In this document: in pieces, positions 7,554 through 60,896 of the stretch
Numbering within the stretch: the stretch's first letter is position 1
Layout: every line of letters begins with the position of its first letter
NCBI GenBank assembly: GCA_009996515.1
Contig: JAACZV010000001.1
Span: forward strand, 1-64,000
DNA: 64,000 nucleotides
Direction: 5' to 3'
DNA from: Comamonadaceae bacterium
GTDB lineage: Bacteria; Pseudomonadota; Gammaproteobacteria; Burkholderiales; Burkholderiaceae_C
The notes under the pieces: model-generated
What the model was told of the DNA's origin: nothing
Databases searched by the model: none
What the model saw: the letters and a program-made list of their open reading frames with translations, nothing else
Position numbers and translations under genes: made by a program

Positions 7554-7582
7554 ATTCTAGCCTGGGAAGACCGATCTGCCAA
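7554..7582 (-). promoter_or_regulatory. Sigma70-like promoter of the rpsF-priB-rpsR-rplI operon
   Basis: On the minus strand TTGGCA and TAGAAT are spaced by exactly 17 bases, each matching the sigma70 consensus at five of six positions. The predicted start near 7547 gives a leader of about 90 bases containing the stem-loop at 7475-7506. Confidence 0.65.
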
Positions 7583-7590
7583 ATCCGACC

Positions 7591-7690
7591 CTTGCGCGGG
7601 CCGAGCGCCGGGCCGTACTGGCGATGTGCTCGCGGCTCGATGCCGCGAGCATCGCCGTCCCCTTGGGGGACCGGCCAAGGTACTCCTTGG
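7591..7690 (-). repeat. Multi-hairpin 3' element, copy A (downstream of the symporter gene)
   Basis: Read on the minus strand, this starts about ten bases after the symporter stop. It consists of CCAAGG/CCTTGG with a four-base loop, then a GTCCCC/GGGGAC hairpin. Next comes a bipartite stem GGCGA + TGCTCGCGG, loop, CCGCGAGCA + CA bulge + TCGCC (7620-7656). A GC-rich block reading GGCCCGGCGCTCGGCCCGC closes it, with two extra bases inserted near its end. The linkers recur in the same order and orientation at 58601-58805, with different but self-complementary stems. It abuts the rpsF promoter. Confidence 0.7.
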
Positions 7691-7700
7691 ACGAGGGGCT

Positions 7701-57776: not shown

Positions 57777-58592
57777 ATGCTTGTTGAGAAATTCAAGGCC
57801 GGCCGCGTCGTCGCCGGCGTCGCCCTGATGGCCATCGCGCTCGGCATGAGCGGCTGCGGCTCCACGGCCAAGGAGGATCCGAACTCCCAGGCGGCGCTGG
57901 ACAAATTGTATGCAGACGCCAAGGATGACCTGAACGCCGGCAGCTACGACCGCGCCATCAAGACCCTCGAGAAGATCGAGGGCCGCGCCGCCGGCACGAC
58001 CATGGGCCAGCAGGCGACGCTGGACGTGGCCTGGGCCTACTACAAGACGGCCGAGCGTGCCCAGGCGATCGCGACGCTGGACCGCTTCATCAAGCTCAAC
58101 CCGTCCAGCCCGGCGATGGACTACGCCCTCTACATGAAGGGCATCGTCAACTTCAACGAGGACCTGGGCCTGTTCGGCCGCCTGGCCAACCAGGATGTCG
58201 CCGAGCGCGACCAGCAGGCCTCGCGCGAGGCCTTGCTGGCCTTCCGCCAGCTGGTCGAGCAGTACCCCGAGTCCAAGTACTCGGCCGACGCGGCGACGCG
58301 CATCGACTTCATCACCAACACGCTGGCGGCCTACGAGATCCACGTGGCGCGCTACTACTTCAACCGCAAGGCCTATGTCGCCGCGGCCAATCGCGCGCAG
58401 AGCGCGGTGGCGGAGTTCCAGCATGCGCCGGGCATCGAGGAAGGCCTGTTCATCATGAGCGAGAGCTACGACAAGCTGGGCCTGACCCAGCTGCGCGACG
58501 ACGCCCGCCGCGTGCTGGACAAGAACTTCCCCGACAGCCAGTACGCCAGCGGCGGCGGCAAGCGCAAGAAGCCCTGGTGGCAGTTGTGGTGA
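57777..58592 (+). CDS. bamD: Outer-membrane assembly lipoprotein BamD
   Basis: A 271-residue lipoprotein. A type II signal has the lipobox MSGC (Cys near residue 25). Five TPR-like repeats follow, including LYADAKDDLNAGSYDRAIKT, GQQATLDVAWAYYKTAERAQ and FRQLVEQYPESKYSADAATR. The segment ALYMKGIVNFNEDLGLF is diagnostic of BamD/ComL. BamD is the essential lipoprotein partner of BamA. A multi-hairpin element begins about eight bases after its stop codon. Confidence 0.96.
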   Translation: MLVEKFKAGRVVAGVALMAIALGMSGCGSTAKEDPNSQAALDKLYADAKDDLNAGSYDRAIKTLEKIEGRAAGTTMGQQATLDVAWAYYKTAERAQAIATLDRFIKLNPSSPAMDYALYMKGIVNFNEDLGLFGRLANQDVAERDQQASREALLAFRQLVEQYPESKYSADAATRIDFITNTLAAYEIHVARYYFNRKAYVAAANRAQSAVAEFQHAPGIEEGLFIMSESYDKLGLTQLRDDARRVLDKNFPDSQYASGGGKRKKPWWQLW

Positions 58593-58600
58593 CCCCTCGC

Positions 58601-58805
58601 CTGGTCTTGCCGCGCTGAACGCGGGCAAGACCAGTCGGTCCCCCGGGGGGAACGGCGATGCTTGGCGGCCTGACCGCCAAGCACATCGCCAGCGCGGGCC
58701 GGCTTGGGAACTGGAGTCGGACACGAGCAGTCCCTGCGGACTGCTTGTGCCTACGAAAGGCCATTGGCCTCCGGCCAATGGCAGGCCCGGCGCTCGGCCC
58801 GCAAG
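58601..58805 (+). repeat. Multi-hairpin 3' element, copy B (downstream of bamD)
   Basis: Hairpins follow one another in order. A 14-bp stem with one bulge lies at 58601-58634, and a TCCCCC/GGGGGGA block at 58639-58651. GGCGA + TGCTTGGCGG, loop, CCGCCAAGCA + CA bulge + TCGCC lies at 58654-58690. A 12-bp CACGAGCAGTCC stem with a CTGC loop lies at 58722-58749. GCCATTGGCC/GGCCAATGGC with a three-base loop lies at 58760-58782. The block GGCCCGGCGCTCGGCCCGC ends it. The order and linkers match copy A at 7591-7690. It fills the gap between convergent bamD and dinG; no gene is seen. Confidence 0.7.
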
Positions 58806-58814
58806 AATCCGCCG

Positions 58815-60896
58815 TCAAGCTCGATCCGAATTCAGCTCCTGCAACCAGGCCAGCGCCTCGGCCTCATTCGCCACCGGCGTCATCGGCGGCAGCGCGGCGC
58901 GCAGGCGGCGGCCGTAGTTCATGCCCGCCATGCGCGGGTCGCACACCACCAGCAGGCCGCGGTCGGTCTCGGTGCGGATCAGGCGTCCGGCGCCCTGCTT
59001 CAACGCGATCGCCGCTTCGGCGACGAAATACTCCGCGAAGGCGTTGCGGCCCTGCGCCTCCAGGCGCTGCACGCGCGCCTCCACCAGCGGGTCGTTGGGT
59101 GGCGGGAAGGGCAGCTTGTCGATGACGACGCATTGCAGCGCATCGCCCGGCACATCGATGCCCTCCCAGAAGCTGGCCGATCCCACCAGCACGGCCCGCG
59201 GGTTGTCCAGGAAGCGCTGCAGCAGCACGCGCTTCGGGGCGGCGCCCTGCTGCAGCACGGCGATGGCGTCGCCGCCCTCCTCGAAGCGCTCGCGCAGCGC
59301 GTCGGCCACGGCCTGCAGATTGCGCAGCGTCGTCGTCAGCACGAAGCTGCGGCCGCCCAGGGCGCGGGCCAGGCGCGAGGCCAGCAGCGCGACGCTGGCC
59401 GGGTGGCTGGGCTCACTCGGCTTGGGGAAGCCGCGCGGCACGTACAGCCGCGCGTTGGCCGGGTAGTCGAAGGGGCTGCCGACGCGCAACACCTCGGCGT
59501 CGGTGAGGCCGGCGGGCTCGGTGAACCAGGTCAGGCCCTCGTCGTCACCCAAGGTGGCGGACGTGAACACCCAGGCCTTGGGCGGCCCTTCCAGCTGCTG
59601 CTGCATCGCCTCGCGGATGTCCAGCGGCGACTGGACCAGGCGCGCCGCATGCGGGCCTATGTCTATCCAGCGCACATCGCCCGGGTCGGGCTCGGCGGCG
59701 AAGGTCCGGGCCAGGTCGCGCAGCTCCTGGGCGCGCTCGCACAGCCGGGCGAAGTCGGGCGCGGCCTCGCGCACGGCGGTCAAGGCCTCCAGCGCCGCGG
59801 CCGTCGCGGCCTCGACACCGGCCAGCGCCGCCGCGAAGCCCGGCTGGGCCGCCCTCTCCTTCCAGCCCAGCTTGAGCATGCCGCGCAGCTCGCGGCCCGC
59901 GGTGGCCAGCGGGCCGGCGGCCGCTAGCCGCAGCTCGCGCGCGGCCTTCTCGATGCCGCCGTGCAAGGCCTGCCAGTCGTGCACGCCACGCGCATGGGCC
60001 AGGCCCTGGGCCAGCAGGTCGCGGCCGAAGTCCAGCAGCGCCGCCGTGCCCAGCAGCGTGCCGAGGAATTGCACGCCCGCCTCGGCGAGCTGGTGGGCCT
60101 CGTCGAAGATGGCGATCTCGACGCTGGGCAGCAGCTCGGCGACGCCGCTGTCGCGCAGCGTCATGTCGGCGAAGAACAGATGATGGTTGACGACCACCAC
60201 ATCGGCCTCCATGGCCTCGCGCCGCGCCTTGACGACGTAGCAGGCCTTCCAGTCCGGGCAGTCCTGGCCCAGGCAGTTCTCGCGGCTGGAGCTGACGATG
60301 GGAATGATGGGCGAGCGCTCGTCCAGGCCGTCGATCTCGGCGAAGTCGCCGCTGGCCGTGCCCAGCGCCCAGCGCTCGATGCGGGCCAGCGACAGCGCCG
60401 TGCGGCGGTCCGGGAACTCGCCGGACAGGCGCGCCTCCTTCATGCGGTGCAGGCAGAGATAGCTGCTGCGCCCCTTCAGCAGGGCCAGGCGCACGGGCGT
60501 GTTCAGCGCCTTGGTCAGCCGCGGCAGGTCGCGCAGGAAGAGCTGGTCCTGCAGGCTCTTGGTGGCCGTGCTGATCAGCGCGCGGCTGCCGGCCAGCAGG
60601 GCCGGCACGAGATAGGCGAAGGTCTTGCCCACGCCCGTGCCGGCCTCGACGACCAGGGCCTGGCGGCGGCTCAGCGCGCGGGCCACGGCGCGCGTCATCT
60701 GCAGCTGCGGCTCGCGCGGCTTGTAGCCCGGGTCCAGGCGCGCCAGCGGGCCGTCGACATCGAAGGCCGCCAGCACGGCCTGCTCCAGTTCGTCGGCGAG
60801 TGGCCCAGGGCTTGGCGGGCTGCCGCCGTCCAGCGCATCCAGCCAGTCGTCGAGATCGGCATCCGGCGGATTCAACGCCTCGATGGCAGTCGTCAT
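58815..60896 (-). CDS. dinG: ATP-dependent DNA helicase, DinG/YoaA family
   Basis: A 693-residue XPD-like superfamily 2 helicase. Walker A is EAGTGVGKTFAYLVPALL near residues 82-99. The iron-sulfur cysteines lie in SSRENCLGQDCPDWKACYVV, and FDEAHQLAE is the DEAH box. The C-terminal motor has FWEGIDVPGDALQ and QGAGRLIRTETDRGLLVV. No N-terminal exonuclease domain is present. These enzymes unwind R-loops and damaged forks 5' to 3'. The next gene upstream on the same strand, a small YdcH-like gene, lies 99 bases away. Confidence 0.93.
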   Translation of the reverse strand: MTTAIEALNPPDADLDDWLDALDGGSPPSPGPLADELEQAVLAAFDVDGPLARLDPGYKPREPQLQMTRAVARALSRRQALVVEAGTGVGKTFAYLVPALLAGSRALISTATKSLQDQLFLRDLPRLTKALNTPVRLALLKGRSSYLCLHRMKEARLSGEFPDRRTALSLARIERWALGTASGDFAEIDGLDERSPIIPIVSSSRENCLGQDCPDWKACYVVKARREAMEADVVVVNHHLFFADMTLRDSGVAELLPSVEIAIFDEAHQLAEAGVQFLGTLLGTAALLDFGRDLLAQGLAHARGVHDWQALHGGIEKAARELRLAAAGPLATAGRELRGMLKLGWKERAAQPGFAAALAGVEAATAAALEALTAVREAAPDFARLCERAQELRDLARTFAAEPDPGDVRWIDIGPHAARLVQSPLDIREAMQQQLEGPPKAWVFTSATLGDDEGLTWFTEPAGLTDAEVLRVGSPFDYPANARLYVPRGFPKPSEPSHPASVALLASRLARALGGRSFVLTTTLRNLQAVADALRERFEEGGDAIAVLQQGAAPKRVLLQRFLDNPRAVLVGSASFWEGIDVPGDALQCVVIDKLPFPPPNDPLVEARVQRLEAQGRNAFAEYFVAEAAIALKQGAGRLIRTETDRGLLVVCDPRMAGMNYGRRLRAALPPMTPVANEAEALAWLQELNSDRA

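Follow-up and report, generated by a model that had tools for sequence, protein, structure and literature searches.

The 64,000-nt stretch of DNA analysed here (the window) carries a run of hairpins directly behind bamD, which raises the question of what kind of element this is and what keeps its stems paired. An earlier note had described it as one of two copies of a multi-hairpin 3' element with compensating stem changes. That the two copies share one architecture was confirmed, with both being matches to one composite palindromic repeat, and the pieces named for them (the GGTCCCCC..GGGG block, GGCGATGC with its long stem, CACATCGCCAG with a two-base bulge, and a 19-mer) are present in each, whilst the central stems of copies A and B do differ on both sides. 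The hairpins and linkers had been captured correctly, but a 5' box, the anchoring to a stop codon and an open frame crossing the element were missing from that description.

The bounds first given for the copy behind bamD (copy B, 58601–58805) were nearly right, save for the missed 5' box: the whole element, a long form, spans 58593–58802 on the plus strand (match to model R1 at 58593–58748 plus the 3' 19-mer). Its box CCCCTCG (58593–58599, read from the sequence and found family-wide) abuts the TGA (58590–58592) of bamD, an outer membrane lipoprotein gene (PF13525; 57777–58592, plus strand). Four hairpins follow on the same strand: H1, the variable first hairpin, here of type 1 (58598–58637; inverted repeat I1 and covariation); H2, a GTCCCC/GGGGAC hairpin that is imperfect in this copy (58638–58653; sequence and family alignment); H3, the long GGCGATG stem with a two-base bulge on its 3' side (58654–58690; inverted repeat I3 and covariation); and H4, with its 5' arm GCGGGCCGGCTTGGG at 58694–58708 (sequence, folding and family alignment) and its 3' arm, the conserved 19-mer GGCCCGGCGCTCGGCCCGC, at 58784–58802 (sequence and family alignment). 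The H4 loop holds a 75-nt insert (58709–58783, plus strand) containing both of the extra hairpins that had been ascribed to copy B (58722–58749 and 58760–58782). The convergent neighbour is a helicase gene on the minus strand (PF13307; open reading frame 58815–60896, called gene 58815–60776), which we take to be dinG-like. Copy A lies on the minus strand at 7596–7698 and is a short form with a type-2 first hairpin that has lost the 5' arm of H4: its 5' box CCCCTCG (7692–7698) is placed 2 nt past the stop codon of a sodium:solute symporter gene (PF00474; 7701–9761, minus strand), with the H3 long stem at 7620–7656 and the conserved 19-mer at 7596–7614, and 199 nt separate the copy from the next gene. 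Folding energies are far below those of dinucleotide shuffles for both regions (z-scores of -7.15 for 58592–58810 and -4.68 for 7580–7700 on the minus strand). Neither window copy is bridged by the open frame described below, and no close co-directional gene lies behind either.

Alignment of 27 short copies from the same genome gave a consensus plan of CCCCTCG box, H1 (variable, in two types), H2 (GTCCCC/GGGGAC), H3 (GGCGATG stem with two-base bulge) and H4 (GCGGGCCGGCTTGGG / GGCCCGGCGCTCGGCCCGC), with a length of about 137 nt that rises to about 290 nt where extra hairpin modules are present. The 5' box, allowing up to 2 changes, stands at the start of 196 of 206 copies and is missing in 10. 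The hairpin modules of the larger copies are placed inside loops: the module of about 75 nt in the H4 loop is found in copy B and in L002–L009 (L009 consists only of this part and H4), another is found inside H2 (L005 and L008), and at one site common to two genomes the copies are alike save for a module in H2 of one of them. Thus, the element appears to resize through gain and loss of hairpins within hairpins. Some variants depart further from the plan. Minimal copies without H3 occur in other genera, and a 79-nt minimal form of this kind stands reversed just ahead of genes in L340, L341, L345, L347, L350 and L356 (around 1501–1580), with the box reading CGAGGGG-YTGTC-ATG, a Shine-Dalgarno-like site at fixed spacing; in other genera the box lies as CGAGGGG 5–6 nt ahead of a start in 7 of 23 boxed elements. 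The long copies in L044 (5855–5891), L071, L087 and L150 share an extra 3' tail resembling GTTTCATGCGTCGCGGGTGCCGCG..GGAATGGACAACTGACATG, which closes with the three-codon frame ATG-N6-TGA ahead of the following start (in 10 cases an ATG stands 9 nt upstream of the TGA). In a few long copies, a left ATGAAAC also seems, by eye, to base-pair with GTTTCAT on the right. A different partner for the 5' box, CGAGGGG, was considered and rejected: although 94.7% paired, this pairing lacks covariation support since no pair was changed on both sides. Against Rfam nothing on the element exceeded the gathering threshold, the best loose match being Scr4115 (27.5 bits against 58).

Covariance-model searches of the own and related genomes, suggested earlier as a check, returned dozens of further copies that are oriented and have covarying stems, rather than no further copies, random orientation or no covariation. 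The own genome (4.58 Mb) holds 88 matches at E ≤ 0.001, likely a lower bound as these come from 150 scored candidates, whereas a sequence search with copy B gave 42. All 20 genomes of the genus (own included) were positive, compared to none of the 20 from other genera or families in the same draw; a wider draw at E ≤ 1e-5 found 38 positives among 200 family genomes and 29 among 141 genera, ranging from a single weak match to many copies (58 matches in G161), and the family is therefore patchy and extends over more than one genus. The exact core pattern occurs in at least 109 stretches from named genomes; among the 80 matches listed, 63 titles name Roseateles, Pelomonas or Paucibacter, 15 are unnamed Burkholderiales bins and 2 are others. 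Head-to-tail tandem arrays resembling a variable-number repeat were seen in G188 (six matches in L332 1098–1957, an array that comes after a stop codon, and three in L333 1454–1872), and contigs of G161 also carry tandem arrays. A blastn search of one copy against plasmids and phages gave no match; BamD had no relative among viral contigs, which has no bearing on the element.

The position of the copies was analysed with genes from a home-made, codon-based caller seeded from the window genes. A same-strand gene lies upstream of 81 of the 88 own matches, and the 5' end of the element falls between -5 and 20 nt from a same-strand stop codon in 62 of these 88 and in 94 of 115 copies from named species (118 copies, less 3 without a called upstream gene; L146 at 40 bits, the cut-off L050 1–104 and the weak L075 at 39.5 bits stand outside the 118), compared to a null of about 5% when intergenic base and strand are drawn at random. 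Further sets, which have some copies in common with the first, gave 38/51 and 28/37. Orientation is equally biased, with 138 sense and 17 antisense copies at tandem junctions (62+76 vs 5+12). Divergent gaps hold only 1 of 88 and 1 of 118 copies, against 24% of the intergenic bases in the named loci. In flank tests, based on the 183 or 184 copies with both ends readable, the 5' flank ends in G in 84% of cases, often as TGAAG, and the tail logo of 184 copies shows no T-run after the hairpins such as marks an intrinsic terminator, being GCAA-like with T at no more than 24% at any of 20 positions. The label of 3' element is borne out in that the family is dispersed, oriented and located at 3' ends, but covers only part of what it is: 62 of the 88 own matches lie between two co-directional genes, often with little promoter room before the next start, and most copies between co-directional genes sit 5–60 nt from that start.

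Comparison of two genomes that are about 94% alike, G002 (17 copies in 800 kb) and G012 (20 copies in 760 kb), provided 22 comparable sites (from 37 records, of which 7 were second views and 8 had no junction to compare). At 15 of these the element is present in one genome and absent from the other, the pattern seen in mobile repeats, and 7 are occupied in both: 3 in the same and 4 in opposite orientation. The opposite cases, within collinear flanking genes, are found in G012:C16 at 453609, 714495, 304641 and 551606 and in G002:C1 (offset 400000) at 297457, 37754, 448356 and 199774; the flanks of such inverted shared sites are mostly more than 90% alike and the elements 82–89%. Site turnover together with opposite orientations indicates that the element moves, with either repeated hits on shared junctions or inversion in place behind the latter. 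The bamD/helicase gap itself varies among 19 genomes of the genus: intact copies follow bamD in the own genome, G008 and G002, intact reverse copies follow the helicase gene in G012 and G003, apparently decayed copies were noted by eye in G014 (after bamD) and G011 (reverse), and the remaining 12 showed no copy, an ordinary terminator-like hairpin being found in several of them. This plain hairpin, approximately AACGGGCC-NNNN-GGCCCGTT, stands at the bamD 3' site in L202, L204, L206, L209, L210 and L212; immediately behind bamD it was not observed in genomes whose element occupies that position. Several empty tandem sites leave little space, with gaps of 7 or 10 nt and, judged by eye, one stop/start overlap, the latter in a gene pair that is presumably glgC-glgA-like; at this pair and at one more site the native stop has been lost and the ATGAAG end of the element supplies the stop. 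The G002 sites orthologous to the G012 elements at C16:394343, 189962 and 192435 are occupied by another palindromic repeat, whose arms resemble CCACAGAGRCAC.../...CTGTGGTTGCAT, as though one kind of junction served more than one repeat. No target-site duplication of the MITE kind was detected: repeats at the same site were no better than shuffled pairs in the 183 copies with both flanks, and 35 copies with TGA on both sides gave no site-specific match.

The compensating stem changes that had been proposed from two copies are real and far beyond shuffles. In the 27-copy alignment, 17 pairs and 59 cells are changed on both sides, compared to 7.9 and 18.1 in shuffled alignments (0 of 500 shuffles as high), whilst 109 copies gave 30 pairs and 246 cells compared to 13.3 and 65.7, in an alignment that leans to structure because it was fitted to the model. 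The kind of residual mismatch speaks to what maintains the stems. Selection on a sense RNA would favour G.U pairs over A.C mismatches, and the opposite was found: A.C exceeds G.U by 33 to 8 cells in 27 copies and by 94 to 49 in 109 copies, though cells are not independent and counting by columns gives 16 to 5 and an even 27 to 24, respectively, with the A.C tilt mostly in H1. Selection on structure, one of the two causes offered earlier, is hence disfavoured and RNA selection unproven; the other, conversion or correction of palindromes, fits better. The stems would thus seem to stay complementary mainly at the DNA level, through copying between copies or palindrome correction, and not through selection on the RNA fold.

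At junctions between co-directional genes, both ends of the element carry translation signals. TGA-N precedes the downstream start at 38 of 127 element junctions, compared to 8 of 298 control gaps, and stop-N-start is found at the left end in 39 of 156, compared to 5 of 344 controls. The right-end TGA-N-ATG is present in 38 of 121 tandem copies and in only 1 of 40 convergent and 2 of 24 antisense copies: its near absence from convergent copies favours a need at co-directional junctions over a fixed end of the element. A frame is called bridging here if it opens between -4 and +10 relative to the upstream stop, runs through the whole element and closes at +1 or -4 relative to the start that follows. 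Such a frame was found in 43 of 124 junctions of the first set (16 and 10 after frame shifts) and, in new data (51 of 52 matches, L333 at 31.9 bits being excluded), in 8 of 23 (4 and 0) and 4 of 15 (0 and 1), which gives a pooled 55 of 162 compared to 20 and 11 when the frame is shifted by 1 or 2 nt (p=6e-9, optimistic like all p-values here since copies share descent). Stops at +1 stand out (30 vs 3 and 5 shifted), the -4 class alone being weak (25 vs 17 and 6) and other nearby offsets rare (0–3 each); none of the 15 new G002/G012 junctions has its stop at +1. A slight excess of in-phase frames is also found in element-free gaps (24 vs 10 and 18 of 557, p=0.04). A gap of +1 occurs in only 3 of 870 ordinary gene pairs in two of these genomes, and this spacing may thus reflect the element's own ends and not normal coupling. 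Two of the three frames are usually open through the element (96, 89 and 31 of 156), probably because it is GC-rich. Bridging frames run to 38–96 codons in two of the three frames (24 and 18, with 1 unassigned), a spread indicating that continuity is kept and not one peptide. The prediction that bridged copies would have fewer Shine-Dalgarno-like motifs failed (10/55 vs 16/107 unbridged, p=0.65), and the 107 unbridged copies are the majority of the 162 tandem ones. Statistically, the frame is present in these sequences and in phase above chance; that it is translated is what we infer from this.

The explanation that we favour, and consider on balance somewhat probable, is that of a REP-like mobile repeat, anchored at gene ends and often made translatable inside operons; its many copies, site turnover, stop-codon anchoring and covarying stems emerge from comparison of the genomes at the level of sequence. 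Insertion would place the hairpin array just after a stop codon, mostly in sense orientation. In the case of both window copies, with no close co-directional gene, the hairpins would form in the 3' UTR, where they could slow 3' decay or limit re-initiation. An untranslated hairpin array within an operon can uncouple genes and invite Rho-dependent polarity. An untranslated array of 140 nt would be expected to do so, and the in-phase crossing frame would avoid this: in about one third of the co-directional copies, it begins at the upstream stop, with which it overlaps or from which it is 1 nt or a few nt removed, and ends 1 nt before the next start or overlapping it, such that ribosomes ending gene 1 may restart, translate the hairpin region and pass on to gene 2. 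With such a hand-over across the element, insertion would leave the operon uncut. More tentatively, the element could be a mobile intercistronic cassette that brings its own translation hand-over, with stop and restart upstream and stop/start downstream, and that in reversed orientation may serve the next gene otherwise. At one G002/G012 junction a sense copy ends in TGACATG in one genome and a reverse copy gives GAGGGG-CTCC-ATG in the other.

Two further readings divide the same evidence, and we regard each as rather unlikely. The element could be a selfish repeat only, devoid of host function, that inserts at junctions owing to the likeness of its ends or target to stop/start junctions and to the lethality of other sites, with hairpins either required for single-stranded-DNA transposition or kept by palindrome correction. 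Site turnover with opposite orientations at shared sites, growth via modules within hairpins (by which one orthologous pair differs), tandem arrays in another genus, the lack of a G.U excess and the two sites where the ATGAAG end replaces a lost native stop all agree with this; by itself, however, it predicts neither the in-phase frame nor the finding of a right-end TGA-N-ATG almost solely in copies that a co-directional gene follows. Alternatively, a 3' UTR RNA element selected for its structure, as a decay barrier, ribosome termination structure or transcription terminator, would suit the position and orientation, the strong folding, the covariation and the presence of an ordinary GC hairpin followed by T's at the bamD site of some element-free relatives. 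It is at odds with stems that have no excess of G.U, a tail logo of 184 copies without a T-run, and the placement of most copies between co-directional genes, mostly 5–60 nt from the next start.

Mobilisation as a REP by a RAYT tyrosine transposase appears improbable: whilst the own genome has two Y1_Tnp genes (L021 1162–1866 and L022 about 1400–2260) and the element shares the general habit of REPs near 3' ends, no element lies within about 1.5 kb of either gene, and no GTAG or CGTC tag was seen by eye at the hairpin foot in the 27-copy alignment or the flank logos. A small protein-coding gene repeated across operons is hardly credible, for although open frames of 38–96 codons exist, the copies use two different frames and differ in length by single bases, and one typed composite peptide had no Pfam match; a conserved peptide was rejected on account of the two frames. 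If the favoured reading of a gene-end-anchored repeat made translatable inside operons is right, repeats can fill operon junctions and leave them unbroken by being translated, and the family would offer a natural replicate set, with dozens of copies per genome and many of them recent, for the study of post-stop structure, re-initiation and polarity. Even with an idle frame, the family stands out as a repeat anchored to stop codons with unusual precision, and as a marker of junction evolution in Roseateles and relatives.

In the literature, in which subscription journals were thinly covered, nothing was recognised as this family in Roseateles/Pelomonas, nor as a repeat that bridges genes by a relay frame. 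The closest general likeness is to REP/BIME sequences, described in an excerpt of PMC3733652 as extragenic palindromes in high copy number that lie for the most part between convergent or unidirectional genes and near the 3' end of the upstream gene, with GTAG REP ends that often provide a stop codon; an excerpt of PMC12306157 considers a role as translational regulators for REPs that lie no more than 15 nt from stop codons. The element likewise consists of high-copy palindromes near 3' ends whose own ends may supply a stop. However, a REP is a single palindrome of 20–40 bp, whereas the element combines several fixed hairpins with conserved linkers, and it differs from REP/RAYT systems in having neither the tag motif nor an adjoining RAYT in its own genome. 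GT pairs are reported, in the excerpted text, to be frequent in REP stems, unlike the stems here, in which G.U is not in excess, and these REP/BIME excerpts make no mention of an open frame that, as in the element, connects to the next gene. The BRE of Hot et al. 2011 (PMC3110155, excerpt) is a GC-rich, chromosomal and mostly intergenic betaproteobacterial repeat of about 90 bp, partly tandem and suspected to be mobile, from Bordetella, Polaromonas, Delftia and others; compared by description only, it is alike in GC-richness, intergenic site and tandems.

Small palindromic mobile repeats with open frames are known as the Rickettsia palindromic elements and the enterobacterial RU elements (PMC10969869; PMC2759123, both in part), although the frames of these are, according to the sections available, fused in frame inside genes, whilst that of the element lies between genes, from stop to next start. 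Ribosome termination structures (RTS), stable mRNA structures just past stop codons, are proposed to block re-initiation (PMC7518266, in part): as presented there they are a general structural tendency and no repeat family, and bridged copies of the element would, in contrast, rely on re-initiation. Finally, termination-reinitiation coupling is stated in the extract of PMC10666635 to need short overlaps (-4, -1) or very short distances. When compared to such coupled overlapping pairs, the inserted element recreates short distances on both of its sides, with +1 as the commonest right-hand spacing.
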